A DNA stretch of 64,000 nt, taken from NCBI RefSeq assembly GCF_002896875.1, contig NZ_CP023278.1:4658501-4722500 (forward strand), read 5' to 3'. Under the pieces are notes generated by a model. It did no database searches, was not told the origin of the DNA, and worked only from the letters and a program-made list of their open reading frames with translations. Made by a program: the position numbers and the translations under genes. Numbering within the stretch: position 1 is the first letter of the stretch; each line of letters begins with the position of its first letter. Shown in pieces: positions 35,801-50,172 of this stretch. This stretch comes from Nostoc sp. CENA543 (lineage in GTDB: Bacteria > Cyanobacteriota > Cyanobacteriia > Cyanobacteriales > Nostocaceae).

Positions 35801-38766
35801 TTGGCGGCTATTTGTCCACTCACGTTTAAGCCTGGTGCCGTGGCTTGCTGAATTGTCAACTGTTCGCCATTCCAAGCCAGGGAAGCGACTAAGGGGCGTT
35901 CTAGTCCTGGTAAACCTTGGGATAACTGCACCTGACCCGCAGCTTCAATATCTGCTAATCTCGTGGAACCCAAATTACCTGCTAATTGCAGTTGTCCGCC
36001 TAATTGTCCCCGCAGTTGTTGATTAAAGCGGTTTAACTGCACACCTGTAGCTGCCACTACGGTTTGATAACGACCGTTAGCCAGTTGAATATTAGACGCT
36101 GTAACTTGACCACCTGCGACATTTAACTGTCCTTGACCTCTGGCTTGGATACTGTTGAGACTGAAAGAATCTACACTACCAGCAACATTTAATTGACCAG
36201 TTAAATTACCTTGAAATTGGGGCGGGACAGTAGCCAAGCGTTGCACAGGGACGTTATCGGCTTGGATTTGGGTTTGATAACGACCGTTAGCCAGTTGGAT
36301 ATTAGCGGCGGTAATTTTACCCTGACCAACATTGATGCTGGCTTGTCCACTGGCTTGGATGGTTTTAGGACTGAAGGAATTGACACTGCCAGAAACGTTT
36401 AACTGTCCTGTTAAATCACCTTGTAGTGGAACCTTGGCCAAGCGTTGCACAGGGACGCTGTTGGCTTGGATTTGGGTTTGATAACGACCGTTAGCCAATT
36501 GAATGTTAGCGGCGGTAATGGTACCGTTACCGACATTAATTTTGGCTTGTCCACTGGCTTGGATGGTATTGGGACTGAAGGAATCTATACTACCGGCAAC
36601 ATTTAATTGTCCGGTTAAATTACCTTGTAGGGGTACAGCCGCTAAACGTTGCACAGGAACATTATTTGCTTGCACTTGGGTTTGATAACGACCGTTAGCA
36701 AGTTGAATATTGGTGGCGGTAATTGTGCCATTACCTACACGTAAGCGGGCTTCTCCGTTGCCTTGGAGAGTTTTCAGATTCAAATTTTCTCGATTGCCGG
36801 CGATTTGAAATGTGCCATCTAGGGGGTTAGCTAAGGCTGGGGGAGAATTTTTGAGGACGTTACCCAGACGGACATTATTAGCGATGAAACGGGCGGTGAA
36901 GTTTTTGTCTTGTAATTGAATACTCGCGATCGCAATCCTACCACCACCAATCTGCACCCCCGCATCTTGGGAACGAATATTGACGATTTGGAAAGGTTCA
37001 GCCGTCCCCGCGAGAAGGAAACGACCGTTTAATTCTGTCCCCGCCAAAGAGATATTTTGCAATTGATTGGGGTTGACAAAGGGTTGTAAACTCACCCTGG
37101 AAGCTTTGGCGACAGCTTGCCAACGCTGATTGACAAAACTCCCACTACCTTGAATCGTCCCCCCACCTACCCGCGCCACCACATTGCGAAAATTAATGTT
37201 ACGATTAGCACCAACTATCACTTCCCCCGTGGTAGGATAAACTGCCTGTGGTGCGGCAAATTGGACGAAAGTCTGGCTATTGGTAGGTGTACCCGTCACC
37301 CTGGCTGTAGCGTTAACACTGCCAATTTTTACGGCCACATTAGGATTATAGAGTTTAGCGATCGCATCTCCAGCCACTTGATTGGCGGCAAAACTCAAAT
37401 CGAGTTGGGGATTTTTTCCTAACTGAATAATCCCACCGCCTCTAATCTCACCACCGACTGAAGTTTCTCCCAGAACGTCTTCCAACTTCACTACAGCATC
37501 CTGGGTGTTGAATGCAAAGTTACTACTAACTCTTTTAAAATTAATCTTATCAATTTGGGCAGTTTTCACAGTGGTGACACTACCCAAGAGAACGGGGTTA
37601 TCAACATCCCCTACCACCTGTAATTTCGCCTGTAATTGTCCAGCCACAGGTACAGGCAGTTTTAATTTTAAAGTTTCTTGGGCTGTAGCGACACTCACCC
37701 CATTAATGCGCCCAGCTAACTTAAAGCCTTTAATACTATCAATAATTCCCGCCGCCACTAGGGGAATTTTGCCGTAGTTAGTAGTGAGATTTTCGAGTTT
37801 AATTTCTGTTCCCTGAAAATAAATACTACCTTGGCTATTAATAAACGGTTGTGGTACGCGGGGAATTTGCAGCGTCACCCCTTCTAAATCAGCACTACCA
37901 TACAGTAAAGGCTTCTGTTCTGGCGCGAGTTGAATTTTTAAATCACCATTCACCCGACCTGTTTGTAATTCCAGGGGTAATTTTATCAATTGGGTAACGT
38001 GTGCAGCCAGCATTTTTTCTGCTTGCACCTGTATATTCGCCACCAAAGTTTTAGGACGCACATCCCCAGCCAAGGTAATGTTACCGCCAGTCTCCGCCTG
38101 ACCTTGGACTGCAAATTTCACCAATTGGTTATTTTCTAAAAATTGAGCAGATCCCAAAAGTTGCGAAAAAGCGATGGGAGAAGCCGCAACATCTTCCTTA
38201 TCTACCTTGTCTGCTGGTTCCCCAACTTCCGCCACCTCTTTCTTTTGGGGTAACAGTACCAAATTGCCATTCCGCAGACGCAGTGTATTTAAATCAGTTT
38301 TAATTGCTCCCGCCTCTCCTGGAGGAGCTAAGGTTGTAGTAATCCAACGCCCTTGATTATCCTGTTCAATGTAGGCATCAGGATTAACTAAGGTAACATC
38401 CAGTTTTAGTTGACGATTAAAAATTAACAGCCAAGGATTAAAAGTAACTTCCACCGCATCGACTTCCGCCTTATCGGGGTCTGTAGCTGTCGGAGGGATA
38501 GAAGAAGCCCCAAAATTGACCCCTGTGAGCGAAAATTGACTAACCTTACCCAATTTTACGGGGCGGTTTAGCGTATTGGTCAGACTTTTTTCTGCTAAAG
38601 GCGTTAATTCATTCTGCACGAAAACCCATAATCGCCAAGCACCGCCGATTAAACCTAGCAGTAAAATACTGCCCAAGGTAATACCACCACGTTTCAAAAC
38701 CCGCAACCATAGACGCTGGCGGTCAGAATTACCGGACTGATGATCTTGAGGGGAAGAATTACTCAT
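32875..38766 (-). CDS. TamB/Tic236-family inner-membrane translocation and assembly protein
   Basis: 1,963 residues. One N-terminal membrane helix (GITLGSILLLGLIGGAWRLW) and a very long beta-rich periplasmic part of AsmA-like repeats, ending in a DUF490/TamB C-terminal domain (GGVNLFTTQFKLASGYKHTA, ALETVRVEANVKGQ, SRSENEIVALLGGG, LDLSTKLSISSIKI, AVIEYQNRF). TamB forms a hydrophobic groove bridging the two membranes, working with an Omp85 protein in outer-membrane protein or lipid transfer; plastid TIC236 is the plant homologue. It has a four-fold internal repeat (residues about 660-910) and short low-complexity inserts (DKVDKED, KQDKQDKQE) encoded by repeat-like DNA. ATG start at 38766. Confidence 0.95.
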   Translation of the reverse strand: MSNSSPQDHQSGNSDRQRLWLRVLKRGGITLGSILLLGLIGGAWRLWVFVQNELTPLAEKSLTNTLNRPVKLGKVSQFSLTGVNFGASSIPPTATDPDKAEVDAVEVTFNPWLLIFNRQLKLDVTLVNPDAYIEQDNQGRWITTTLAPPGEAGAIKTDLNTLRLRNGNLVLLPQKKEVAEVGEPADKVDKEDVAASPIAFSQLLGSAQFLENNQLVKFAVQGQAETGGNITLAGDVRPKTLVANIQVQAEKMLAAHVTQLIKLPLELQTGRVNGDLKIQLAPEQKPLLYGSADLEGVTLQIPRVPQPFINSQGSIYFQGTEIKLENLTTNYGKIPLVAAGIIDSIKGFKLAGRINGVSVATAQETLKLKLPVPVAGQLQAKLQVVGDVDNPVLLGSVTTVKTAQIDKINFKRVSSNFAFNTQDAVVKLEDVLGETSVGGEIRGGGIIQLGKNPQLDLSFAANQVAGDAIAKLYNPNVAVKIGSVNATARVTGTPTNSQTFVQFAAPQAVYPTTGEVIVGANRNINFRNVVARVGGGTIQGSGSFVNQRWQAVAKASRVSLQPFVNPNQLQNISLAGTELNGRFLLAGTAEPFQIVNIRSQDAGVQIGGGRIAIASIQLQDKNFTARFIANNVRLGNVLKNSPPALANPLDGTFQIAGNRENLNLKTLQGNGEARLRVGNGTITATNIQLANGRYQTQVQANNVPVQRLAAVPLQGNLTGQLNVAGSIDSFSPNTIQASGQAKINVGNGTITAANIQLANGRYQTQIQANSVPVQRLAKVPLQGDLTGQLNVSGSVNSFSPKTIQASGQASINVGQGKITAANIQLANGRYQTQIQADNVPVQRLATVPPQFQGNLTGQLNVAGSVDSFSLNSIQARGQGQLNVAGGQVTASNIQLANGRYQTVVAATGVQLNRFNQQLRGQLGGQLQLAGNLGSTRLADIEAAGQVQLSQGLPGLERPLVASLAWNGEQLTIQQATAPGLNVSGQIAANANRPGIPEITALNLNIQAQDFNLQQLPVTLPNQVAVAGRLDFNGRVTGKLPLPNVAGQLALKDLAVQGIAFEPVLKGSVQSAQGQGLNLDLRGNNDRIALNLNANNRPESFLVKWQQASAQGQVKGDNWSVQVASFPLQILNVSPPPNLRLGAGKLAGNLTGDIQFNQSTFATSANLAIAKPEIGRIKGDRLAAQFRYSDGTASITSSEFIKGNSRYALTGNLAPTAQGPRIQGKLNVSQGNIQDVLTVAQIFDIQDLQNNGSPPSYGSAADLNTAPQGLPNRPLLDQIERLAQINRLIADREEQRTASPIPELADLQGTFSGDVALDTGTPEGLSVQFNLNGQNFTWGKEEEENRFYRADKIIAEGSFANGVLQVRPLRIESANSLVAFAGNIGGSDQSGQLRVNNFPIEVLNNFVRLPIGITGNLSGTAALAGSIGNPQARGELQITEGKLNDKAIESANASFSYANGRLNFGSIVAIAGPQPVNINGSIPYKLPFATTNPDSDQISLDVKVQNEGLALLNLLTNQIAFEQGEGEIDLTVRGTRQKPILNGIATVKDATFSAQALPGKVRRVTGKIQFDFDRVLVESLQGRFSRGQVAAAGEIPIFNTELAINNPLTVELEQLNLNLKGLYQGGASGNLQITGSALKPAIGGKISLYDGQVLLAESTNTQQQNNNNGISLSKQDKQDKQEVNSANAIARFNNLELELGKNLQITRPPILSFRATGNLIVSGTFADPIPVGTIQLKDGGVNLFTTQFKLASGYKHTATFRANQPRDPDLDVQLFAKVLDVVQDSNFSDSRLSPTGLAALETVRVEANVKGQASKLDQSLELRSSPSRSENEIVALLGGGFANAQGGGDSTLGIINIAGSAVFNNFQSAFNQIGTAFGLSELRIFPTVISDNPEAGKSGSSIELAAEAGVDLSTKLSISSIKILTANDPFQWGINYRINDKIRVRASTNLEDDSRAVIEYQNRF
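36040..36790 (-). repeat. Four ~208-bp in-frame repeats inside the TamB gene
   Basis: The plus-strand phrase gtttgataacgaccgttag recurs at about 36062, 36271, 36478 and 36688, a period of 207-210 bases. It encodes four copies of a ~69-residue unit carrying NIQLANGRYQT, VPVQRLA, LTGQLNVAGS and IQASGQA, differing by a few substitutions each. Confidence 0.88.
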
Positions 38767-38879
38767 GTGGCTTCACTTCTCTTTTCCTGAACGTGGTAGG
38801 CACACTACTAGCACTATGGGCATATTACTACGCCAATACCAAGATACAAACCAATCTCATCCTTTGGCATTCGGATGAA

Positions 38880-39110
38880 TGCGTAGTAGTCATTAGTCAT
38901 TAGTCATTAGTCATTAGTCATTAGTCAACAGTCAATAGTCAACAGTCAATAGTTATTACTCATTACTCATTACTCATTACTCATCACTCATCAGTTTTTC
39001 TTCCCCTACTCCCTTGTCTCCCCTGTCTCCCTTGTCTCCCCTGCCCCCTGCCCCCCTGCCTCTTTTCCCCACCCCCCTACACCCTTACACCCCTACACCC
39101 CTAAACTTAT
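38880..39110 (+). repeat. TTAGTCA heptamers and C-rich low-complexity DNA between tamB and the DUF3110 gene
   Basis: TAGTCAT/TAGTCAA heptamers at 38889-38955, CATTACT heptamers at 38957-38985, then tcccttgtctcccctgtctc-type and polyC-rich DNA to about 39105. No gene in the 370-base gap. Confidence 0.8.
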
Positions 39111-39136
39111 AGATATACATAACAATGTAAGGACGG

Positions 39137-39565
39137 ATGATTACGCCAATGCGGGTTTTTGTGTTGATTTTTAACGCTAATACGGAAAATGAGGGGATTC
39201 ATACAATTCAGGTGGGCGATCGCAATAAAATTCTGATGTTTGAATCTCAAGATGATGCTATCCGTTTTGCCCTGATGTTGGAGGCTCAAGATTTCCCAAC
39301 TCCTACTGTGGAAACAATGGATGCTGAGGAAATCAAGGAGTTTTGTGAAAGTGCTGACTATGACTGGGAAATTATCCCAGAAAATAGCGACCTTGTCATT
39401 CCTCCAGAGATTAATGTTGAAGAAACTGATTGGCAGCCCGATGGGCAATATGATGATAATTACGAGGATGGTTTAGACTTCGATGATGTTCCACCTGCGG
39501 AGGAAACGGAATTTTCTGCGGCTGAATTAGAAAAGATTCGCCGCAAATTAGAAGGATTGTTGTAA
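39137..39565 (+). CDS. DUF3110 protein
   Basis: 142 residues. The family block MRVFVLIFNANTENEGIHTI, followed by ILMFESQDDAIRFALMLEAQ and FCESADYDWEIIP, is the small alpha/beta DUF3110 domain found almost only in cyanobacteria and plastids. The C-terminal 50 residues are very acidic (DDNYEDGLDFDDVPPAEETE) and end in a short helix (SAAELEKIRRKLEGLL). AAGGACGG precedes the ATG at 39137; a second ATG at 39149 is possible. Soluble; function unknown. Confidence 0.88.
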   Translation: MITPMRVFVLIFNANTENEGIHTIQVGDRNKILMFESQDDAIRFALMLEAQDFPTPTVETMDAEEIKEFCESADYDWEIIPENSDLVIPPEINVEETDWQPDGQYDDNYEDGLDFDDVPPAEETEFSAAELEKIRRKLEGLL

Positions 39566-39646
39566 CTTAGTCATTTAGTCATTAGTCAATAGTCCATAGT
39601 TGATGGGCGATGACACAGATAACAACGAACGCGCAGGCTACCATAA

Positions 39647-40564
39647 ATGACAAATTTACAAGAACGTGGGCATTTATTGACAGAACAAGTCAATCCTTTG
39701 AGCCTGAATTTAGACCAGCTCAGTTGTTTGGAGTTGGTAGAGTTGTTTAATAGTGAAGACTATAAAGCAGTAGAGGCGGTAGCGGCGGCTAAGGAGGAGA
39801 TAGCCCAGGCTATTGCACAAACAGCCGCCCGTTTGCGTCAGGGTGGACGTTTGTTTTACGTGGGTGCGGGAACAAGTGGACGCTTGGGGGTATTAGATGC
39901 GGCGGAATGTCCCCCAACTTTTTGTACGCCACCAGAGTTAGTTCAGGGGATTATTGCTGGTGGTGCTGGGGCTTTAGTACGCAGTTCTGAGGATTTGGAA
40001 GATAGGGCGGAAGACGGAGATAGCGCGATCGCTCAACGTCATGTTACTCAGTTAGATGTAGTGGTGGGAATTACCGCCGGTGGGACAACTCCTTTTGTTC
40101 ACGGTGCTTTAAATGCTGCCCGTCAACGGGGGGCATTGACAATTTTTATTGCTTGTGTTCCAGCCGAACAGGTGAGTTTTGAGGCGGATATTGATATTCG
40201 CTTGTTAACAGGGCCGGAGATTTTAGCCGGTTCTACCCGTCTCAAAGCCGGTACAGTCACCAAGTTGACTTTAAATATCCTATCTACTGGGGTAATGGTG
40301 CAATTAGGCAAAGTTTACGGCAATCGCATGGTGGATGTCGCAGTCACAAATCAAAAGTTACGCGATCGCGCTTTACGCATCTTACAAGACCTCACAGGTT
40401 TAAGTCGAGAAGCTGCTGGTTATCTTTTGGAACGTAGCGGTAAATGGGTGAAACTGTCATTATTAATGCACTGGACTGGTTTAAGTAAAGAAGCTGGGGA
40501 ACAGCTTTTATCAGCCCACCAAGGTAATCTCAGAGAAGCTGTCGCTAGTCATAAGAATACTTAG
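39647..40564 (+). CDS. murQ: N-acetylmuramic acid 6-phosphate etherase
   Basis: 305-residue SIS-fold lyase that removes D-lactate from MurNAc-6-P to give GlcNAc-6-P during cell-wall recycling. Motifs: GRLFYVGAGTSGRLGVLDAA, ECPPTFCTPPELVQGIIAGG, SEDLEDRAEDG, ITAGGTTPFVHGAL, LAGSTRLKAGTVTKLTLNIL, and VYGNRMVDVAVTNQKL. Catalytic Glu lies in SSEDLEDRAEDG. No anmK or phosphotransferase gene is beside it. Complete; ATG start. Confidence 0.96.
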   Translation: MTNLQERGHLLTEQVNPLSLNLDQLSCLELVELFNSEDYKAVEAVAAAKEEIAQAIAQTAARLRQGGRLFYVGAGTSGRLGVLDAAECPPTFCTPPELVQGIIAGGAGALVRSSEDLEDRAEDGDSAIAQRHVTQLDVVVGITAGGTTPFVHGALNAARQRGALTIFIACVPAEQVSFEADIDIRLLTGPEILAGSTRLKAGTVTKLTLNILSTGVMVQLGKVYGNRMVDVAVTNQKLRDRALRILQDLTGLSREAAGYLLERSGKWVKLSLLMHWTGLSKEAGEQLLSAHQGNLREAVASHKNT

Positions 40565-40569
40565 TAAAT

Positions 40570-40595
40570 TTGAGTGCTGAGTGTTCAGCACTCAA
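40570..40595 (+). terminator. Hairpin after murQ
   Basis: Perfect 11-bp stem TTGAGTGCTGA/TCAGCACTCAA with loop GTGT, 6 bases after the stop. The tail is weakly T-rich. The stem sequence resembles the gtgctgagt spacers used in the repeats elsewhere in the window. Confidence 0.6.
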
Positions 40596-40751
40596 AACTT
40601 CTGAAAATGAATAAATTAAAGTTATCTACCCAATTGACTTAGTTAATAATGTGGCTTTAACTACGCTCTTGATGGGAATTAGTGGGATAGACTAAACGAG
40701 TATCTTTCATCTAAATATTAACTTTCACTTATTCACAAAAGAGGGTTACTA

Positions 40752-41015
40752 ATGACTAGAGAAGGGACTAAGGTTATTCTATGGGAAGAACAGCAAAGAG
40801 ACTATATCAAGAAATTCTATGATTTACAATTTATACCCAGAGTTGGAGAGGAAATTTATCTCAGAAAGGAGAGTTGGAAAGTCACGAGAATTGAACATGA
40901 TATAGAAGTAGATGAAGTTAATATCTACATGGAAGTAATGAAAAAGGGTAAGCAGGATAAGGATAGGGACAAAGATAAGGATAAGGATAAACCTTCAGTC
41001 AAACACAATGAATGA
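40752..41015 (+). CDS. Small protein with charged KD-repeat tail
   Basis: 87 residues. The first 65 look like a small beta domain (GTKVILWEEQQRDYIKKFYD, VGEEIYLRKESWKVTRIEHD, EVNIYMEVM). The tail repeats KDKDKDRD-type charged residues encoded by a near-perfect GATAAG/GACAAA hexamer array (40958-40990). GAGGG precedes the ATG. It overlaps the next gene by 8 bases (ATG at 41008), implying translational coupling. No known domain. Confidence 0.72.
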   Translation: MTREGTKVILWEEQQRDYIKKFYDLQFIPRVGEEIYLRKESWKVTRIEHDIEVDEVNIYMEVMKKGKQDKDRDKDKDKDKPSVKHNE

Positions 41016-41205
41016 TTCAGCCTTCACTATTTTTATTATCTTTGGGAGCATCTGGATTTTAATGGCGACAGTAGCAGTAATTGCGCTTTTCAAAGCAGAT
41101 GGGCAAGAAATTCGTTTCGGTAAGACGGGAATTATCATTACTTTGTCTATTATTCTTCCCATTATTATCACTCTTGCCTATGCTGCTTGGAGAGGTACTT
41201 TCTAA
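41008..41205 (+). CDS. Small two-helix membrane protein
   Basis: 65 residues with two membrane helices (FTIFIIFGSIWILMATVAVI and IIITLSIILPIIITLAYAAW) joined by a polar loop (FKADGQEIRFGKTG). Overlaps the preceding gene by 8 bases in another frame and lies 30 bases before the ribbon-helix-helix-like gene, so the three may be one transcript. Function unknown. Confidence 0.68.
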   Translation: MNDSAFTIFIIFGSIWILMATVAVIALFKADGQEIRFGKTGIIITLSIILPIIITLAYAAWRGTF

Positions 41206-41235
41206 AGATTTGTTTTAATAGCTCGTGCATCTGCA

Positions 41236-41457
41236 ATGACTTCACAAAATCAACGCCTTCAAATAAATTTAAATTTATCGCTCGAATTATATAAAACCAT
41301 TGATAACTTATCACAGCAAATTCATGGCGATCATGCTGATGTTTTCCTCAAAGCACTAGCACTACTAGAAATAGCTGTAGAAGCCAAGCAGCAAGGTAAA
41401 CATCTCTGGATTGTGGATGATAATCAAAATCTGGACACTGAAATTTCAGGCATCTAA
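41236..41457 (+). CDS. Ribbon-helix-helix-like small protein
   Basis: 73 residues with a strand (RLQINLNLS), helix 1 (LELYKTIDNLSQQI), turn (HGDHA) and helix 2 (DVFLKALALLEIAVEAKQQG), then LWIVDDNQNLDTEI. This fits the short ribbon-helix-helix regulators common in cyanobacteria, often antitoxin-like, whose helix 2 reads KALALLEIA(V)EAK. ATG start. It is followed by a small membrane protein gene, which would be the partner if this were a toxin-antitoxin pair; that is inference. Confidence 0.7.
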   Translation: MTSQNQRLQINLNLSLELYKTIDNLSQQIHGDHADVFLKALALLEIAVEAKQQGKHLWIVDDNQNLDTEISGI

Positions 41458-41548
41458 TACCCATTTTAGATTTTAGATTTTGGATTTTAGATTTTGGCTT
41501 GAAAATCGAGATTTAGAAGATATTCTATAAATTTATAACAATACTACT

Positions 41549-41565
41549 TATACCAATTTGGTATA
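41549..41565. promoter_or_regulatory. 17-base palindrome TATACCAATTTGGTATA before the start codon
   Basis: Perfect palindrome (centre T) ending 6 bases before the ATG at 41572. It equals two ATACCAATT ends of the MITE-like family placed head to head, so it may be a deletion remnant; it could also act as an operator or hide the ribosome site. Confidence 0.55.
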
Positions 41566-41571
41566 ACCAAT

Positions 41572-41823
41572 ATGGCCAATATTAAGTATTTAGCAGAGAT
41601 AATTGCCACCAAGGGTGAAAATCCGCTAATTGTCTCAATCATAAATCAAAATTCTCAAGCGGACGCAGAACTTGATCGTCAGTTGCGAGAATTGCAATTT
41701 AGGCAAGAACTAAGAAAAGACTGGATTTTATTTATAGTGAGAGATTTAGTGATATTTTCTACTACTATCTTGTTTATTTTGCTAGTTAGTGGTTATGCTT
41801 TATTTATGCACATTTATCGATAA
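41572..41823 (+). CDS. Small C-terminally anchored membrane protein
   Basis: 83 residues: a soluble lead with a charged amphipathic helix (QADAELDRQLRELQFRQELR) and one C-terminal membrane helix (LVIFSTTILFILLVSGYALF). It lies 114 bases after the ribbon-helix-helix-like gene. The pairing of such a regulator with a small membrane protein recalls small-membrane-toxin modules, but there is no direct evidence. Function unknown. Confidence 0.65.
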   Translation: MANIKYLAEIIATKGENPLIVSIINQNSQADAELDRQLRELQFRQELRKDWILFIVRDLVIFSTTILFILLVSGYALFMHIYR

Positions 41824-42632
41824 AAATATATTTATTTAATGTAGTAATAACAAAAGGGTAAATAATTAAAAAATTGTATTAATAACTTTAGGTTTTAAGA
41901 AAGGACTAAAGTCCTTACTACAAACTTGATTATATTATTTATATAGCGTTTACTAGTCTGCCGAGGTACAAATTTATCTGCGTTTCTCTGTGTTTATCTG
42001 CGTTTAATTATTGTCGTTTGTAATTCATTAGGGTTAAAAGACTATAGCATATTAAAATTCTGAATATTAGTTATAATCATACTTTCGCTTACCTCCTAAA
42101 AATATAGTGTTTAAATTGCCAATTGGTTGATATTGATGATGTTTATAAATTACCGAATATAATTTGTGATAATCATCACAAATTAATAATTAAAGAATGT
42201 TGTCAACGCACATTTAAATATTTTGTATAGGCAATATACTGAAATTGCAAGCAAGGATACATTATAGAAGAGTTATTTTTGCTAATCAAACTTTTTTAAA
42301 AAAATGTTGTAATTACTTTTGACAACTAGTGAAAAAATCCTTAAGCTAATAGATAGGACTCACTCACTCAACAACCAACGGCAATTTTGTTAGGTAAATT
42401 AAAAATCGCTGTTGTAGCTTATCAGTATGAACAAATGAATTAATCTCAATCATTGACTATAAATAATAGCCTCACTTAATTGACAACAAATAGGCAAATT
42501 ATAACGTAGCCAGATGTCGCCACGACTATCTAAAAATCAATTCTGGTTATGCAGGTAAGCCTATGTGGATGTGAGTGAATGTCGAGTATTGAGATGTTAA
42601 TGAGGTGCGATCGCTATGCCAAGGAGAGGAGA
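41824..42632. other. 0.8-kb non-coding region before the oxidase operon
   Basis: Contains an inverted single arm of the GTAGT element (41901-41921, palindromic aaggactaaagtcctt) and a diverged left half of the TATAGCG element (41942-42010). The rest, 42010-42600, is AT-rich with no open frame and is the likely promoter region of the oxidase operon. I searched by eye for GTA-N8-TAC (NtcA) sites and found none. Confidence 0.55.
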
Positions 42633-43133
42633 ATGCTTGATTATCTTACATCGTTGAACGATCACAATTTACCCTACCCAGACACAATACATCCCATCGT
42701 TGTTCACTTTGTAATTGCGATGGTGTTGTTTGCATTTGTTTGTGATCTGATTGGTTATTTCACAGGTAAAGCTCGGTTTTATGAAGTGGGTTGGTGGAAT
42801 TTATTTGTTGCTACCATTGCCATTTTTGTCGCCATTATTTTTGGTCAGTTTGAAGCTGGCTTGGCTAAACCCTACGAAGTAGCTAAATCTGTACTGAATT
42901 TGCATACCTTAATTGGTTGGTCATTGTCAGGTATTATCGCCGCCATGACAGCTTGGCGATATGTTCTCCGGGCGCGTAACCCCTACAAAATCCCTATCCA
43001 CTACTTAGGAGTAGGGTTAATTTTAGCCTTAATTGTAGGTGTTCAAGTTTATCTCGGAGATGAACTGGTTTGGGTCTATGGGCTACACACAGTCCCAGTT
43101 GTAGAAGCTGTTAAGGATGGTATGCTGCCATGA
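42633..43133 (+). CDS. DUF2231 four-helix membrane protein, oxidase operon
   Basis: 166 residues, four membrane helices. Histidines sit at helix ends: TIHPIVVHFVIAM (two His seven apart in helix 1), LNLHTLIGWSLSG and VYGLHTVPV. DUF2231 members are unassigned; the paired His could bind haem or metal. The frame is open from 42579, but AAGGAG at 42621-42626 is correctly spaced for the ATG at 42633 (MLDYLTSLND). The stop overlaps the next start by 4 bases (ATGA). Co-occurrence with a CuA-less oxidase suggests an electron-entry or assembly role; this is inference. Confidence 0.85.
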   Translation: MLDYLTSLNDHNLPYPDTIHPIVVHFVIAMVLFAFVCDLIGYFTGKARFYEVGWWNLFVATIAIFVAIIFGQFEAGLAKPYEVAKSVLNLHTLIGWSLSGIIAAMTAWRYVLRARNPYKIPIHYLGVGLILALIVGVQVYLGDELVWVYGLHTVPVVEAVKDGMLP

Positions 43134-43735
43134 ACTCAGAACTAATTGAGCAATTAAATATCCAATTAGGAGCGAACGGATTACCTTACACAATTCCGAT
43201 TCATCCCAACCTGGTGCATTTGACTTTGGGCTTATTCATCATCGGTATTACTTTTGATATCGTTGCTGTGCTTTTCCCTTTTCAAAAATGGGTGTTCAAA
43301 TTTTTGGGAATGACAGTTGAACGGGAAAACCTGTTTGATGTTGGCTGGTACAACATGGTAGGTTCGACCGTCATCACCTTTTTCACAGTGGCCGCAGGCT
43401 TTTATGAAATGTTTCTCGCCACACCTACCCCTGATATCAAAAGTGCTTGGGGACTAAAAGCCATGCAAACCATGATGTGGCATGGGGTAGGAGGTGTATT
43501 TCTACTGGGTTTAATTGCTCTCATGACTTTATGGAGAGCATGGCAGCGTTATGTTTGGTCTGAAGACCAAGACCAACAAGTGCAGTGGTGCTATTTAGCT
43601 ACAGGCGTGTTCATCATGTTCATCATGTATCTCCACGGCACTTTAGGAGCGCAATTAGCAGCTGAATTTGGCGTACACAACACAGCCGATAGCTTACTGC
43701 GTTTAGGTGAAGACCTCAATAACGTCCTCAAGTAA
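43130..43735 (+). CDS. Second DUF2231 membrane protein, oxidase operon
   Basis: 201 residues, a paralogue of the preceding protein: TIPIHPNLVHLTLGLFIIG in helix 1, FDVGWYNMVGSTVITFF, MMWHGVGGVFLLGL and FIMYLHGTLGAQ, with the same His spacing. Longer loops than its partner. Overlaps it by 4 bases, so the two are made together and may form a heterodimer. Seventy bases of TTGACTA-type heptamers separate it from coxB. No published function known to me for this pair. Confidence 0.85.
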   Translation: MNSELIEQLNIQLGANGLPYTIPIHPNLVHLTLGLFIIGITFDIVAVLFPFQKWVFKFLGMTVERENLFDVGWYNMVGSTVITFFTVAAGFYEMFLATPTPDIKSAWGLKAMQTMMWHGVGGVFLLGLIALMTLWRAWQRYVWSEDQDQQVQWCYLATGVFIMFIMYLHGTLGAQLAAEFGVHNTADSLLRLGEDLNNVLK

Positions 43736-43805
43736 AGGGAGAAGTAACGGAGAAATTGAGGATGTTGACTATTGACTATTGACCCTTGACTCTTGACTAT
43801 CAACT

Positions 43806-44732
43806 ATGAAATTTCGGACATTTTTCAATATTTTTACGCTGATAGTAGGAGCGATCGCGATCTCTACTGTTAGCCTGTGGGTAGGTAAACTCGCCTATTC
43901 CTGGTTGCCTCCCCAAGCGGCGGCTGAATCTCACTTGATTGATGATTTATTTAGCTTCTTGGTCACTCTAGGTGCTTTCATCTTCCTGGGTGTAACTGTG
44001 GTTTTGATGTACTCTTTGTTATTCCATCGGGCGGAAAAAAATGACTGGAGTGATGGCCCCCACATCGAAGGTAATATCACCCTAGAAGTAGTTTGGACAG
44101 CTATTCCGATTTTCCTGGTATTTTGGATTGCAGGTTATAGCTACCAAATCTATGAACAAATGGGGATTCAAGGCCCCACAGCCTTGGGACACCTACACAA
44201 CCCAATGGAAATGAAGTCAGCTTATGCTGCTACCGATGATGAAGGTGGAGTAATTGCAGCTGAACCTAGTGAAAAAATTGACGTAATCGCTAAACAATGG
44301 GCGTGGGTTTTCCACTATCCCGATAAGAATGTTACCAGTACCGAATTGCATTTACCAAGCGATCGCCGTGTGCATTTAGCCCTACATTCCCAAGATGTAC
44401 TCCACGGCTTTTACATCCCTGCATTCCGTCTTAAACAAGACATTGTTCCTAATCAAACCATTGATTTTGAATTTACCCCCATCCGCGAAGGCGAATATCG
44501 TCTAACAGACTCTCAATATAGCGGTACCTACTTCGCCACTATGGAAGCAAATGTGGTTGTGGAGTCTCCAGAAGACTATCAAAAATGGTTAACTAAAGTC
44601 GCTACTCACAAACCCATGCCCGCTTATAACCAAGCTGCGGCTGAATACGCCCAAAGCAGTAGTCAGCCAGTCAAAACAGGCTGGGAAACCGTCGCACCTG
44701 CTGCCGCACCTTTAGTTAATTACCCAGGCTAA
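43806..44732 (+). CDS. Terminal oxidase subunit II lacking the CuA site (ARTO type)
   Basis: 308 residues: an N-terminal hydrophobic segment, two membrane helices (LFSFLVTLGAFIFLGVTVVL, ITLEVVWTAIPIFLVFWIAG) and a cupredoxin-like domain with QWAWVFHYP and HSQDVLHGFYIPAFRLKQDI. The CuA loop, normally RLFCAEYCGTNHSGM, reads RLTDSQYSGTYFATM: Asp235, Ser239 and Phe243 replace Cys, Cys and His. CuA is therefore absent and cytochrome c cannot be oxidised in the usual way. Known cyanobacterial ARTO enzymes have this feature and are thought to take electrons from quinol. ATG at 43806. Confidence 0.93.
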   Translation: MKFRTFFNIFTLIVGAIAISTVSLWVGKLAYSWLPPQAAAESHLIDDLFSFLVTLGAFIFLGVTVVLMYSLLFHRAEKNDWSDGPHIEGNITLEVVWTAIPIFLVFWIAGYSYQIYEQMGIQGPTALGHLHNPMEMKSAYAATDDEGGVIAAEPSEKIDVIAKQWAWVFHYPDKNVTSTELHLPSDRRVHLALHSQDVLHGFYIPAFRLKQDIVPNQTIDFEFTPIREGEYRLTDSQYSGTYFATMEANVVVESPEDYQKWLTKVATHKPMPAYNQAAAEYAQSSSQPVKTGWETVAPAAAPLVNYPG

Positions 44733-44747
44733 AAGGAACATCAACAC

Positions 44748-46424
44748 ATGACCAATATCCCTATTGATAGGCTCGATCTCCCTGTGGAGAAGCCTAACCA
44801 CGGACACGGATCTGGCGGTGGCTGGAAAGAGTATTTCAGCTTCAGCACCGACCACAAAGTTATCGGTATCCAATACCTAGTTACTTCTTTTATCTTCTTT
44901 CTCGTCGGCGGTATCTTCGCCATGATTTTGCGGGGAGAACTCATCACCCCTGAATCAGACTTAGTTGACCGCACCGTTTATAACGGGATGTTCACTATGC
45001 ACGGTACAGTGATGCTGTTCCTGTGGACATTCCCTTCCCTTGTGGGTTTAGCTAACTATTTAGTCCCCCTAATGATTGGGGCGCGGGACATGGCTTTTCC
45101 CCGCCTCAACGCCGCCGCCTTTTGGATGGTTCCCGTCGTAGGGATTCTGTTGATGGCGAGCTTTTTTGTTCCCGGTGGCCCGGCTCAAGCTGGTTGGTGG
45201 GCTTATCCCCCAGTGAGTCTGCAAAACCCCACCGGTCACTTAATTAATGGCCAAGTGATTTGGCTGTTGGCAGTGGCGATTTCTGGTGTGTCCTCAATTA
45301 TGGGGGCTGTCAACTTTGTTACTACTATTGTCAAGATGCGTGCGCCAGGTATGGGCTTCTTTCGGATGCCTTTATTTGTCTGGGCAGTATTTAGCGCGCA
45401 GATTATCCAATTGTTTGGTTTACCTGCCCTGACAGCCGGTGCAGTTATGTTGTTACTCGACTTGACTGTCGGTACTGGCTTTTTTAACCCCACCAATGGC
45501 GGTAATCCGGTGATGTTCCAGCATTATTTCTGGTTCTACTCTCACCCTGCCGTTTATGTGATTATTCTGCCCATTTTTGGGATTTTCTCGGAAATTTTCC
45601 CAGTTTACGCTCGTAAACCTCTGTTTGGTTACAAAGTAGTTGCCCTGTCTTCTATATTGATTGCGGTAGTCAGTGCAATTGTCTGGGTACACCATATGTA
45701 TGTCAGTGGTACACCTGCTTGGATGCGGATGGTATTCATGCTGACTACCATGTTGGTATCTGTACCGACTGGGATTAAAGTATTTGCTTGGGTTGCTACT
45801 ATCTGGGGCGGCAAAATTCGCCTCAATACACCCATGCTGTTTGCTTTGGGTGGTTTGATTATGTTCGTGTTTGCGGGTATTGTTGGCATTATGCTTTCTT
45901 CTGTACCCGTGGATATTCACGTTAACAATACCTATTTCGTTGTCGGACACTTCCACTATGTCCTCTATGGGACAGTGACAATGGGGATGTATGCAGCCAT
46001 CTATCACTGGTTCCCCAAAATGACCGGTAGAATGTACAACGAAGGTTGGGGTAAAGTACATTTCTGGTTAGCATTTATCGGTACTAACCTCAACTTCTTA
46101 CCCATGCACCCATTAGGATTGCAAGGGATGTTACGCCGAGTTGCTTCCTACGCACCAGAGTATGAAGGCTGGAATATTGTGGCTAGCTTAGGTGCATTCT
46201 TGTTGGGTATGTCTACATTACCCTTTATCTTCAATATCCTAGTTTCTTGGATGCAAGGTGAAAAAGCACCTGATAATCCTTGGCGCGCTATTGGTTTGGA
46301 GTGGTTGGTTGCTTCTCCTCCACCAGTAGAAAACTTTGAAGAGATTCCAGTTGTGATTTCTGAACCTTATGGTTACGGTAAATCAGAACCCTTAGTGGCA
46401 GAAGCACATAGTCATCAACATTAG
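44748..46424 (+). CDS. Terminal oxidase subunit I, A2-type (ARTO)
   Basis: 558 residues, twelve membrane helices, haem-copper catalytic subunit. Low-spin haem His in MFTMHGTVMLFLW; CuB/Tyr motif WFYSHPAVYVIILP (His266, Tyr270); CuB His pair WVHHMYVSG; high-spin haem region HVNNTYFVVGHFHYVLYG. The helix-VI motif is YSHPAV, not GHPEV, so the D-channel Glu is replaced by Ala268 and the Tyr-Ser pair of A2-type oxidases is present. The catalytic set is otherwise complete. Fifteen bases from coxB, with AAAAGGAAC upstream of the ATG. A His-rich tail ends the protein. Confidence 0.95.
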   Translation: MTNIPIDRLDLPVEKPNHGHGSGGGWKEYFSFSTDHKVIGIQYLVTSFIFFLVGGIFAMILRGELITPESDLVDRTVYNGMFTMHGTVMLFLWTFPSLVGLANYLVPLMIGARDMAFPRLNAAAFWMVPVVGILLMASFFVPGGPAQAGWWAYPPVSLQNPTGHLINGQVIWLLAVAISGVSSIMGAVNFVTTIVKMRAPGMGFFRMPLFVWAVFSAQIIQLFGLPALTAGAVMLLLDLTVGTGFFNPTNGGNPVMFQHYFWFYSHPAVYVIILPIFGIFSEIFPVYARKPLFGYKVVALSSILIAVVSAIVWVHHMYVSGTPAWMRMVFMLTTMLVSVPTGIKVFAWVATIWGGKIRLNTPMLFALGGLIMFVFAGIVGIMLSSVPVDIHVNNTYFVVGHFHYVLYGTVTMGMYAAIYHWFPKMTGRMYNEGWGKVHFWLAFIGTNLNFLPMHPLGLQGMLRRVASYAPEYEGWNIVASLGAFLLGMSTLPFIFNILVSWMQGEKAPDNPWRAIGLEWLVASPPPVENFEEIPVVISEPYGYGKSEPLVAEAHSHQH

Positions 46425-46448
46425 GGAAATGCAATTGCGGAAGGATTT

Positions 46449-46481
46449 CCAGACGAAAAGAACGAGCTTCTTTTTGTCTGG
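46449..46481 (+). promoter_or_regulatory. Hairpin between oxidase subunits I and III
   Basis: Fourteen-pair stem CCAGACGAAAAGAA/TTCTTTTTGTCTGG (one G-T pair) with loop CGAGC. GGGAAA (46424-46429) and TTTCCC (46484-46489) extend it outward. It may attenuate or process the message so that subunit III is made at a different level. Confidence 0.65.
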
Positions 46482-46526
46482 TGTTTCCCTAAAAGAACTT
46501 ACAGTACACAACTCATAATTGCACCG

Positions 46527-47141
46527 ATGGATAGCTATATTGTTCCCGATGATTTACAACAATCGTCGCATCATGCAGGCGGCGAACACGGCCACGACGA
46601 AGAAGGCAATAAAATGTTCGGTTTTATTGTGTTCTTATTGTCTGAAAGTGTCATTTTCTTGAGTTTTTTCGCTGGCTATATTGTCTATAAACTCTCTACC
46701 CCTAATTGGCTACCACCTGGCATTTCTGGGTTAGAAGTTAAAGAACCAGCAATTAATACTGTGGTGTTGGTTGCTAGTAGTTTTGTGATTTATCTGGCAG
46801 AAGTCGCCCTCAAACGCCACGATTTACGGATGTTCCGTATTTTCTTGACTACAACAATGGTTATGGGTGGCTACTTTTTGGTAGGACAGGCCATTGAATG
46901 GAGCAATTTAGAGTTTGGTTTTACTTCCGGTACATTTGGCGGGATGTTCTACCTGCTGACGGGTTTCCACGGTTTGCACGTTTTGACTGGAATTATATTG
47001 CAGTTAATCGTGCTGTTGCGCTCTTTTGTTCCAGGAAATTACGACAACGGTCACTTTGGTGTCAATGCTACTTCTTTGTTTTGGCACTTCGTCGATGTGA
47101 TTTGGATTGTTTTGTTTATCATGCTTTACATTTGGCAGTAA
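46527..47141 (+). CDS. Terminal oxidase subunit III
   Basis: 204 residues, five membrane helices, the short bacterial form of CoxC. Family blocks: MFGFIVFLLSESVIFLSFFA, NTVVLVASSFVIYLAEVAL, GGMFYLLTGFHGLHVLTGII, HFGVNATSLFWHFVDVIWIV. The N-terminal 30 residues are rich in His and acidic residues (QQSSHHAGGEHGHDEEG). It is separated from subunit I by 102 bases carrying a hairpin but is surely in the same operon. ATG start without a strong ribosome site. Confidence 0.94.
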   Translation: MDSYIVPDDLQQSSHHAGGEHGHDEEGNKMFGFIVFLLSESVIFLSFFAGYIVYKLSTPNWLPPGISGLEVKEPAINTVVLVASSFVIYLAEVALKRHDLRMFRIFLTTTMVMGGYFLVGQAIEWSNLEFGFTSGTFGGMFYLLTGFHGLHVLTGIILQLIVLLRSFVPGNYDNGHFGVNATSLFWHFVDVIWIVLFIMLYIWQ

Positions 47142-47176
47142 AACAGATTAATCCTGTAGCCGAATACCGATTTTGT

Positions 47177-47206
47177 GGCTAATAGCAAGAAAATGGGCTA
47201 TTAGCC
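47177..47206 (+). terminator. Terminator-like hairpin after the oxidase operon
   Basis: Perfect 10-bp stem GGCTAATAGC/GCTATTAGCC with a 10-base loop, 35 bases after the subunit III stop, followed by AATTATTTTG. It can serve as the operon's 3' end. Confidence 0.7.
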
Positions 47207-47293
47207 AATTATTTTGCAAATTTTGGTTTTATTATCGGTTATTTGGTCTTGAACAAAACGCTGTAATTGGCTCACAATGATTTGTAAAATTAC

Positions 47294-48346
47294 TTAGGCG
47301 ACTTGAAAATTCTCCGCTTCTTCCATTGGTTCATAACCCTGAGTTAAATGCTCAATGGCTTTATCGATTAAGTCTAAACCTTGCTGGACGGTTTCAATGA
47401 CGCTTAATTGTCCCCGTAATTCAGCCGCACCAACAAAACCTTTAGCGTACCAAGTCATATGTTTACGGGCTTGACGTACACCGCGATCGCCTTTATATTC
47501 CCATAAAGCCTGTAAATGATCTCTGGCACATTCGAGGCGTTGCATGGGAGTTGGTGCTGGTAATAATTCGCCAGTCTTGAGGAAGTGGTCGATTTCTCCA
47601 ACCAAAAAGGGATAACCCAAAGTCCCACGGGAACACATCACACCATCTGCGCCAGTCTCCTCTAAGCATTTGACAGCCGCTTCCACTGAGAAGATATCAC
47701 CATTACCAATGACTGGGATGGAAAGTGTTTCTTTGACACGGGCTATCCATTCCCAGCGTGCATTGCCATTGTACCCCTGTGCGCGGGTGCGTCCATGCAC
47801 AGTGATCATTTCTGCACCTGCGTCTTCCATACGCTTGGCAAAATCAAGGATAGTGATTTCTTTGTCATTCCAGCCAATGCGGGTTTTGACTGTCACTGGG
47901 ACATCAACAGCTTTGACAACTTCTCGCACGATAGCTTCTGCGACTTCCGGCTGTCGCAACAGTGAAGAACCGCCACCATTTTTAGTAATTTTATTTACCG
48001 GACAACCCATATTAATATCAACTGTATCCGCACCTTCTGCTACAGCTTTGATAGCGGCTTCAGCCAGAAAATCAGGGCGACAGTCAAATAACTGAATGCT
48101 AATTGGGCGTTCGTTGGGGTCTACTTCCATGATTTTGGGTAGTTGCTTGACGTAGTGTAACCCTGTAGCGTTCACCATTTCGGTGTACATCATGGAATCT
48201 GGTGCATAGCGACGCACCAACCGACGAAAAACCATATCTGTCACCCCAGATAAAGGTGATTGCAGAACTCGACTTTTGACGGCAAATGAGCCAATTTTCA
48301 GGGGTTGGGAGAGTCTAGCTTGCAGACTGGGAGACAGAGTAACCAT
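47294..48346 (-). CDS. dusB: tRNA-dihydrouridine synthase (DusB-type)
   Basis: FMN-dependent reductase that makes dihydrouridine in tRNA D-loops. Motifs: VLQSPLSGVTDMVFRRLVRR, MYTEMVNATGLHY, ISIQLFDCRPD, DINMGCPVNKITKNGGGSSL with the catalytic Cys in GCPV, TVKTRIGW, TVHGRTRAQGY, VIGNGDIFS and VMCSRGTLGYPFL. The frame extends back to 48424 through heptamer repeats; the ATG at 48346 (MVTLSPSLQARLS) gives 350 residues, the usual size, and is preferred. Single gene. Confidence 0.94.
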   Translation of the reverse strand: MVTLSPSLQARLSQPLKIGSFAVKSRVLQSPLSGVTDMVFRRLVRRYAPDSMMYTEMVNATGLHYVKQLPKIMEVDPNERPISIQLFDCRPDFLAEAAIKAVAEGADTVDINMGCPVNKITKNGGGSSLLRQPEVAEAIVREVVKAVDVPVTVKTRIGWNDKEITILDFAKRMEDAGAEMITVHGRTRAQGYNGNARWEWIARVKETLSIPVIGNGDIFSVEAAVKCLEETGADGVMCSRGTLGYPFLVGEIDHFLKTGELLPAPTPMQRLECARDHLQALWEYKGDRGVRQARKHMTWYAKGFVGAAELRGQLSVIETVQQGLDLIDKAIEHLTQGYEPMEEAENFQVA

Positions 48347-48573
48347 GTGAGGGACTGGGGACTGGGGAATAGGGACTGGGTTAAAAGACTGCTGGGATAT
48401 GGCTTCTCTAAATGTTTTATGCACAGTTCACGCCAGCGATTATACAAGTTTATCATCTGGCGCAGCAATCTATCTCAATTACCTGAGTAAAGCCCAGGGA
48501 GTAGAGATTGGGGACTGAGTTTTGGGATGAGGTAGACAAGGTAGATTTGATCCCAATCCCCAGCCCCCAATCC

Positions 48574-49650
48574 CTAATTCTTCAACCCAGCCATACTGCG
48601 GATATGCCCATTACTAGCAAATTTCTCTTGCAAAATTTGCCGATAAACTTCTTCATAGCCATCAGTCATTGCTTGCAAACTAAAACGGTTGTGAACATAT
48701 TCCCGACAGTAAAAACGATCTAAATCTGCAACTTTGTCAATTGCGTGGATACACTCTTCAACATTACTGCACAGAAAACCGGTTTTACCGTGGTCAATGA
48801 CTTCTGTGGTAGAACCCAGTTTCATAGCAATAACTGGTGTCCCTGAAGCCATTGATTCCACCATTACTAAACCAAAAGGTTCTCGCCAAGTTATCGGGAA
48901 TAATGTCGCAACTGCACCACCCATGAGAGCATTTTTTTGTATATGGTTAGCTTCTCCTAAATACTCTATCTGCTGGCCATCAATGAGAGGTTTAATTTCT
49001 TTCTCAAAATATTCGACATCCACAACATCTACCTTACCAGCCATTTTTAATCGCCAACCAGCTTTTTTGGCAATTTCAATGGCTAAATGAGGGCCTTTTT
49101 CTGGAGAAATCCGACCTAAAAATGCTAAATATGGCGGTTCATCTGGTTGGGGATAAAAATTATAACTATTAACATCAATGCCGTTGTAAACTGTTGCCAC
49201 ATAATTCAGTCCTAATGAGAGTTCTCTTTGAGAATCAGAAATACTTACAAAAGGCTGATTTTTGGCATATTGAAACATTTTTTGATTATCAGAAGTGAAA
49301 ATGCCATGCAGTGTATGAACTGTGGGAGTTTTGACTAGTTTGGCATAAGGTAATGACGCACAACCCATATGTGAGTGAATCAGATCAAACTCATCTGCAC
49401 GTTCATACACTGAACCTAGTTGTAGCATTTCATAAATGCTATATTCCTTGACTTTAGAATCAAGTCTTAGCGCACAGGGATGAACTGATACTAGCTTTGC
49501 TAAACTGATAGAATCTCCCGATGCAAACAGTGTGACCTCATGTCCACGCCGGACTAATTCATCGGTTAATAAACCCACTACTAGCTCAATACCTCCATAA
49601 GCTGGCGGCGGTACTCTCTCCCATAATGGGGCTACTTGAGCAATTCGCAT
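48574..49650 (-). CDS. Glycosyltransferase family 4 (GT-B) protein
   Basis: About 358 residues, nucleotide-sugar-dependent glycosyltransferase. N-terminal domain with PPPAYGGIELVVGLLTDELV and RRGHEVTLFASGDS; C-terminal donor-binding domain with LAFLGRISPEKGPHLAIEIA and the E-x7-E region EPFGLVMVESMASGTPVIA. Acceptor unknown; envelope polysaccharide or glycolipid synthesis is plausible. The start is the ATG at 49650, six bases after a perfect AGGAGG; the upstream GTG is too close. Stand-alone. Confidence 0.93.
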   Translation of the reverse strand: MRIAQVAPLWERVPPPAYGGIELVVGLLTDELVRRGHEVTLFASGDSISLAKLVSVHPCALRLDSKVKEYSIYEMLQLGSVYERADEFDLIHSHMGCASLPYAKLVKTPTVHTLHGIFTSDNQKMFQYAKNQPFVSISDSQRELSLGLNYVATVYNGIDVNSYNFYPQPDEPPYLAFLGRISPEKGPHLAIEIAKKAGWRLKMAGKVDVVDVEYFEKEIKPLIDGQQIEYLGEANHIQKNALMGGAVATLFPITWREPFGLVMVESMASGTPVIAMKLGSTTEVIDHGKTGFLCSNVEECIHAIDKVADLDRFYCREYVHNRFSLQAMTDGYEEVYRQILQEKFASNGHIRSMAGLKN

Positions 49651-50172
49651 CACAAACCTCCTAAAAACTGAGATTGGAATTAGGTGTGTTTGTTGGTTGT
49701 TTCAAGAGTGTTTTTCATTGATATATCTACTCTAGAAACTATTTTTTAACACCAATTTTATAATTAAGCACTCATAGATTCTAGGCGTTTTCTTCTTGAT
49801 TACTTGTCTATCTTTGTAGGGAAATTTCCCTATTCCTCAAACATGATTTTAACTTATAATTGATAGTCTAATGAGTGCATATTAAGCTTTAATGGATTTA
49901 ATAACCACAGTATTTATTGCCAAAATTCCCAAAAATTTTGGCATAACTTATATTTTTCCTAGAGACTCGACTTCTGCAATCAAATGGGTATTTAATTTCC
50001 CATTACCCATTTAGGCTACTCTATATAAAAGTTGCATGGGAAAATATCAACTAATTCAGTGGCGTGACTATTGACTATCACAGATATAATCCAGTCAAAT
50101 TAGTCTGTTGACGTTTGCTATGGCGTAGAATATATTTTATACTCGTACTCCTATAAATAAAATAATAAAAAC
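49651..50172. other. 522-base non-coding region between divergent genes
   Basis: AT-rich DNA holding promoters of both the glycosyltransferase and the PotC-like gene. I see no open frame and no remnant of potA/potB. A trace of tttaatttcccattacccat is the only repeat-like piece. Confidence 0.5.

Follow-up and report, generated by a model that had tools for sequence, protein, structure and literature searches.

A pair of DUF2231 membrane proteins as a candidate electron-entry module of CuA-less ARTO-type oxidases in cyanobacteria

The window analysed here is a stretch of 64,000 nucleotides from Nostoc sp. CENA543 (contig NZ_CP023278.1, positions 4,658,501 to 4,722,500), and all coordinates below refer to it. 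Its positions 42633–47141 (forward strand) are a type-1 ARTO/Qox (alternative respiratory terminal oxidase) operon of five genes in the order DUF2231-A, DUF2231-B, CuA-less CoxB, CoxA and CoxC. Subunit II (CoxB) of this oxidase has lost CuA ligands, and CoxB genes of this kind co-occur strongly with the two DUF2231 genes (hereafter A and B), the products of which carry four invariant histidines each. The reading that we favour is that the DUF2231 pair constitutes an accessory heterodimeric electron-entry module of the ARTO oxidase, and, taken as a whole, we regard it as evenly balanced between right and wrong. The features of the operon are as follows (lengths in amino acids, aa).

42633–43133, forward strand: DUF2231-A, 166 aa, first gene of the operon (PF09990, 153.9 bits; cut-off, 26.4)
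42690–43088, forward strand: four invariant histidine codons of DUF2231-A (H20 at 42690, H25 at 42705, H91 at 42903, H152 at 43086)
43130–43735, forward strand: DUF2231-B, 201 aa (PF09990, 135.6 bits; cut-off, 26.4)
43202–43678, forward strand: four invariant histidine codons of DUF2231-B (H25 at 43202, H30 at 43217, H118 at 43481, H183 at 43676)
43806–44732, forward strand: CoxB (subunit II), CuA-less (Pfam matches COX2_TM and COX2)
44508–44543, forward strand: lost CuA motif DSQYSGTYFATM in CoxB (CuA positions read in sequence)
44748–46424, forward strand: CoxA (subunit I; PF00115, 538 bits)
46527–47141, forward strand: CoxC (subunit III; PF00510, 117.8 bits)

The start of DUF2231-A was set at the ATG at 42633 and not at the longer open reading frame (ORF) start at 42579, based on the fit to its relatives. 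An earlier note on this stretch, made from the nucleotide sequence alone, had described two DUF2231 paralogues upstream of CoxB that overlap by ATGA, and both the genes (42633–43133 and 43130–43735) and the overlap were confirmed. The motifs HPIVVHF and HPNLVHL are present as it quoted them, and the invariant set, with four histidines per protein, is larger than it had recognised.

At the His, Cys, Cys, His and Met positions of CuA, the window CoxB reads H-D-S-F-M: the first histidine and the methionine are kept, and Asp, Ser and Phe occupy the Cys, Cys and His positions (44508–44543), exactly as the earlier note had it. The haem and CuB histidines of CoxA (H85, H266, H315, H316, H401 and H403) are retained, as they are in CuA-containing oxidases. 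The quinol site in subunit I (CyoB) of Escherichia coli bo3 consists of R71, D75, H98 and Q101. In the solved bo3 and aa3-600 chains, R71, D75 and H98 are kept and position 101 is Q or E (E in aa3-600), whereas the corresponding residues of the window CoxA are V53, F57, V77 and G80. Of 195 aligned CoxA rows of the phylum (130 CuA-less, 61 CuA-containing, and 4 CuA-containing with the pair), none has at least two of the four bo3 quinol-site residues. Since the CuA ligands are lost and the bo3-type residues of subunit I are absent as well, the enzyme is without either known entry site, and the problem of electron entry, to which the earlier note had drawn attention, is a real one. According to the available part of a review (PMC6616624), plastoquinol is the electron donor of type-1 ARTO/Qox, and in cyanobacterial Qox its electrons enter haem b directly.

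The source genome (7.2 Mb) has four COX1 matches. Two oxidase operons (L010 and L011) have CuA and no DUF2231 gene nearby, and both CuA-less operons, that of the window and L012, are headed by the A–B pair. The arrangement is beyond chance, as the same gene order recurs in L012 and in contigs selected through B. A fifth DUF2231 gene (L013) is of a separate, lone type, and its 10 kb yielded no oxidase subunit. In 11 aligned lone proteins, HPxHP stands where the pair type has HPxxVH, and oxidase subunits were not found in their loci. Thus, the concern of the earlier note that DUF2231 genes may occur without oxidases holds for the same genomes, but the proteins involved (L013 and others) are of a different type. 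At L013:7264-7890, spurious ORFs on both strands contain repeated short peptides that resemble a translated CRISPR array.

For an oxidase-led survey, COX1 and DUF2231 were located in 88 genomes of the phylum, and the COX1 places of at least 238 bits, plus two weaker ones, were read at the CuA positions; 18 COX1 places were left out, 14 of them with 186–215 bits (taken as cbb3/NOR-like by score) and four of them fragments. This sample comprised 92 CoxB ORFs, 64 CuA-containing and 28 others, and the latter were reduced to 26 by dropping L014 (found via DUF2231) and L113 (an unreadable CoxB stub). The pair was present upstream of 25 of the 26 CuA-less CoxB genes and of none of the 64 CuA-containing ones (Fisher p 2e-21, calculated over relatives that are not independent). 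The possibility, raised in the earlier note, that such genes are equally frequent beside CuA-containing oxidases was therefore not borne out.

A similar result was obtained for 214 genomes of the class, where B was detected in 114 and CuA-less-type CoxB in 107: B is present in 107 of the 107 genomes with CuA-less-type CoxB versus 7 of the 107 without it. In this table, CuA-less-type CoxB is defined by an E-value of at most 1e-66, a threshold picked after viewing the list, and the CuA motif itself was read only in the fetched loci; the neighbours of the threshold that were read are consistent with it (G240, 3.9e-68, CuA-less; G153, 1.3e-65, CuA present). Among the seven genomes with B and no CuA-less-type CoxB, three (G099, G143 and G171) have a CuA-containing CoxB adjoining the pair and two (G036 and G109) are of the cbb3 type; in G097, the contig ends within CoxB, leaving CuA unreadable, and in G178, the pair adjoins CoxA on a short contig where CoxB was not seen. 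The best 80 named contigs found via B included 76 with a readable CoxB, and all 76 were CuA-less with the pair upstream, although this set was selected by B.

In four genomes of family f5 (L014/L020, L015/L021/L282, L016/L022/L283 and L017/L023/L284), CoxA lies apart from the CuA-less CoxB, and every part is present in each. In one of them (L014, L020), A, B and CoxB stay together though CoxA is apart, so that there the pair follows subunit II. Fusions that would indicate contact were sought in the ORFs of L001–L133, window positions 38001–50000, L148–L267 and L272–L291, which gave no A–B fusion and no fusion of A or B to an oxidase subunit; the one fusion flagged was CoxA–CoxC in L102. Several other loci are unusual. 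L113 (G054:C15:254000-268000) appears to be a decayed ARTO operon, with CoxB cut to 105 aa, CoxA running into an apparent CoxC end, and A, B and a type II NAD(P)H dehydrogenase (NDH-2) gene open. Three genomes of the window's family (L103, L104 and L115) have CoxA with no CoxB or CoxC in the fetched stretch, and these CoxA group with the CuA-type CoxA of L010. An entire A-B-CoxB-CoxA-CoxC operon (L292, 196499-210993) resides on plasmid A of Trichormus variabilis ATCC 29413, which is typed as conjugative; genes for a BlaI/MecI/CopY-type regulator and for subunit I of a cytochrome ubiquinol oxidase lie in its vicinity.

Alignment of A showed H20, H25, H91 and H152 to be invariant across all 156 distinct sequences (of 164 A ORFs, 2 that were short or broken were left out), and H25, H30, H118 and H183 of B are invariant in 160 of 160; B H169 is a histidine in 138 of 160 and a glutamine in the other 22. 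The histidines pointed out in the earlier note thus belong to eight conserved positions. These are located where transmembrane helix (TM) 1 begins, close to the beginning of TM3, and in the last part of TM4 or beyond it. AlphaFold2 (AF2) models, made for single chains only and of middling confidence, consist of four long helices both for A (mean pLDDT, 74.3; pTM, 0.67) and for B (mean pLDDT, 77.6; pTM, 0.70). The mean number of Lys and Arg residues is 1.7–4.6 in loops 1 and 3, and 0.15–1.5 in the N-terminus, loop 2 and the C-terminus. Because loops 1 and 3 are the positively charged ones, the invariant histidines are predicted to lie on the lumenal/periplasmic face, the same face as CuA in cytochrome c oxidases. 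Judged from the AF2 helix limits and loop charges, the TM1 and TM3 histidines are near one face, and they could ligate one haem per subunit.

According to the favoured reading, A and B would be integral accessory subunits of the CuA-less oxidase, forming a heterodimer. Oxidation of plastoquinol would take place on the lumenal/periplasmic face, at this dimer or next to it, and the invariant histidine clusters would hold a redox cofactor, most probably haem of the b type and with lower probability copper, and/or accept the quinol proton. The low-spin haem of CoxA would then receive the electrons, close to the site of CuA in cytochrome c oxidases. The module would probably have become part of the oxidase while CuA was still present, making CuA dispensable. 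Of the components of this proposal, a physical association of A and B with the oxidase appears probable, a role in electron entry could go either way, and haem b as the cofactor is suggested tentatively.

A number of observations weigh against this reading. In L238, L240, L241 and L242, A–B directly precede a CuA-containing CoxB with intact ligands (CTQLCGTYHGVM and similar); these four loci, of families f38 and f46, form one clade in the CoxA tree. In L018, L233 and L243 (genomes G036, G109 and G202), A–B lie behind CcoN and CcoO, the latter with its CXXCH haem c motif kept. Since normal acceptors coexist with the pair, the pair is not simply a CuA substitute, and simple CuA substitution was rejected as a full account because of the four CuA-containing loci. 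The proposal of the earlier note, that the pair serves as the entry module of CuA-less oxidases, therefore agrees with the co-occurrence and the invariant histidines, but not with the four CuA-containing and three CcoN–CcoO loci. Furthermore, one CuA-less CoxB (L086), a third copy in a genome holding two other pairs, has no pair in reach, and the pair is apart from the CuA-less CoxB in three of the f5 genomes (L282–L284) and in L276 and L277. The histidines are predicted on one side only, unlike in a transmembrane two-haem cytochrome b, and they may instead be needed for folding or for the delivery of copper or haem. Foldseek gave no match at E ≤ 0.001 (best E-values, 0.55 for B and 0.72 for A), which carries little weight with models of middling confidence, and B has no PDB relative by sequence up to an E-value of 10, a search made with B and not with A. 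Weak Foldseek matches below significance, to STEAP chains (B), CcmF (A) and oxidase subunit III (both), were not used. Finally, no NDH-2 gene at >500 bits within 5 kb was found in the window or in the 80 B-selected loci.

With regard to the three CcoN–CcoO loci, the N-terminal domain of CcoP (PF14715) was detected in none of the six genomes searched, theirs included, while the Caulobacter control was positive; these loci may represent a CcoP-less cbb3 oxidase. Families f38 and f46 may be Gloeobacter-like and f15 may be S. elongatus-like; the second of these guesses gains from the S. elongatus control genome, which matches PF09990 and FixO.

In the tree of 27 loci, A and B are the two sides of a fully supported branch and form separate clades in all of them; they are thus ancient paralogues that have been retained side by side. 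The A and B sequences of the CuA-containing and cbb3-type loci fall outside the clade of the CuA-less oxidases (support 95/96 for A and 100/99 for B), with L243_B being a long branch of unsure placement. CuA-less CoxA rows make up one clade (100 in a quick tree; 100/100 in a fuller one), inside which the fuller tree places three CoxA rows without CoxB nearby. In the quick tree, the CuA-containing rows with the pair are sister to all CuA-less rows (SH-aLRT 96); the fuller tree adds L273 and L291 (CuA-containing, no pair), and the fork between the CuA-containing rows with the pair and the CuA-less rows is left open. It is likely, though not shown, that the pair was gained before CuA was lost.

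Alternatively, A and B could be dedicated assembly or maturation factors, acting outside the electron path in haem or CuB delivery or in the stabilisation of subunit II. Small membrane proteins with conserved histidines, encoded by overlapping genes at the head of the operon, would suit such a role, as would the failure of the fold search to link them with any known redox protein and the coexistence of the pair with intact CuA or CcoO in some loci. However, the haem and CuB histidines of CoxA are the same in CuA-containing oxidases, and none of the 64 CuA-containing CoxB genes of the oxidase-led sample has the pair nearby; moreover, the retention of both paralogues in 27 of 27 tree loci suits a stoichiometric heterodimer. 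Hence, we consider the assembly role unlikely. Another explanation confines A and B to stabilising the complex, or its location in the membrane, and places quinol binding at a new, unrecognised site of CoxA. Residues conserved in CoxA of the CuA-less group are compatible with it: Q218, Q221, W151 and Q159 are found in 129 of 130 rows each and are mostly absent from CuA-containing rows without the pair, and W151 and Q159 are largely common to CuA-containing rows with the pair. As a new CoxA site leaves unexplained both the eight invariant histidines on one predicted face and the fact that this pair also accompanies a cbb3-like oxidase, it is regarded as improbable.

NDH-2 acts on the cytoplasmic face of the membrane. 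The pair might link this enzyme with the oxidase by channelling quinol, or electrons, from the former to the latter, which would make a short NAD(P)H oxidase chain. NDH-2-like genes (nearest solved chain, YjlD; PF07992) were counted if they scored >500 bits within 5 kb, and were present at 16 of 83 pair loci of the genome samples versus none of the 70 CoxB loci that lack the pair. The three batches contributed 8 (of 31), 3 (of 39) and 5 (of 13) linked loci, respectively, and the last of them was partly picked for odd spacing. In L014 the gene immediately precedes A, in L237 it separates B from CoxB, and in two of the three cbb3-type loci (L018 and L233) it comes right after B. This proximity fits a respiratory role of the pair on the quinone side, but it is not a general feature: at the threshold used, 67 of the 83 pair loci and the 80 B-selected loci have no NDH-2 gene, the sole trace among the latter being a weaker and more distant match in L226. 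Thus, an NDH-2 link is not required, and the histidine clusters are predicted on the face opposite to that of NDH-2, so that coupling to this enzyme appears improbable as the function of the pair.

If the electron-entry reading is extended to all of the loci, the pair may be a portable two-subunit quinol-dehydrogenase module that can be attached to CuA-containing A-family, CuA-less A-family and cbb3-like CcoNO oxidases, turning them into quinol oxidases, and the arrival of which allowed CuA to be lost once in cyanobacteria; this wider proposal is, at present, doubtful. CuA-less-type CoxB was present in 107 of the 214 class genomes sampled. The survey singles out two proteins and eight histidines as candidates for the missing entry point, and the CuA-containing and cbb3-like oxidases with the pair offer natural intermediates.

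Quinol-using haem-copper oxidases of the A family without CuA are known in bo3 (Cyo) and aa3-600, which differ from the window-type CoxA in that the quinol-site residues are kept in the former and absent from the latter; the E. coli cyo region examined carries no DUF2231 annotation, unlike the window operon. Compared with cbb3 (CcoNOP), the three genomes with CcoN–CcoO followed by A–B are without a detected CcoP N-terminal domain, and Foldseek found no fold shared between the middling-confidence models of A or B and membrane b-type cytochromes. Both proteins score far above the cut-off of PF09990 (DUF2231), a family to which Pfam assigns no function, and a literature search, mostly outside subscription journals, returned no function proposed for the pair. 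An exact NtcA box (GTAN8TAC) is absent between 36061 and 42633, with 15 matches in the whole window against 11.4 expected. In Anabaena, an NtcA peak from chromatin immunoprecipitation at alr2729 is labelled cox3 operon in the part of PMC3898017 that is available. Within the accessible portions of the respective papers, alr2729 and alr2730 are putative membrane proteins lowered together with the cox3 genes (PMC7065334) or are listed as hypothetical among lowered genes (PMC4390870), and the pair is not mentioned in the corresponding portions of a Cox3 localisation paper (PMC11500504) or of two papers that mention ARTO (PMC13331136, PMC7796093). The review cited above (PMC6616624), as far as its accessible text goes, describes ARTO-type oxidases as heterocyst enzymes in Anabaena, leaves unclear whether they contain further subunits, and states no role for alr2729 and alr2730. 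The operon as such is therefore not new, as the membership of its two leading genes is already in print, while the available text gives them no function. The presumptive assignment of alr2729 and alr2730 to DUF2231 is based on gene order and on relatives such as Trichormus variabilis. The closest known system is Cox3 (type-1 ARTO/Qox) of Anabaena sp. PCC 7120, the operon of which, alr2729-alr2730-coxB3-coxA3-coxC3 (PMC6616624, available part), shares with that of the window both the gene order and a CuA-less subunit II.

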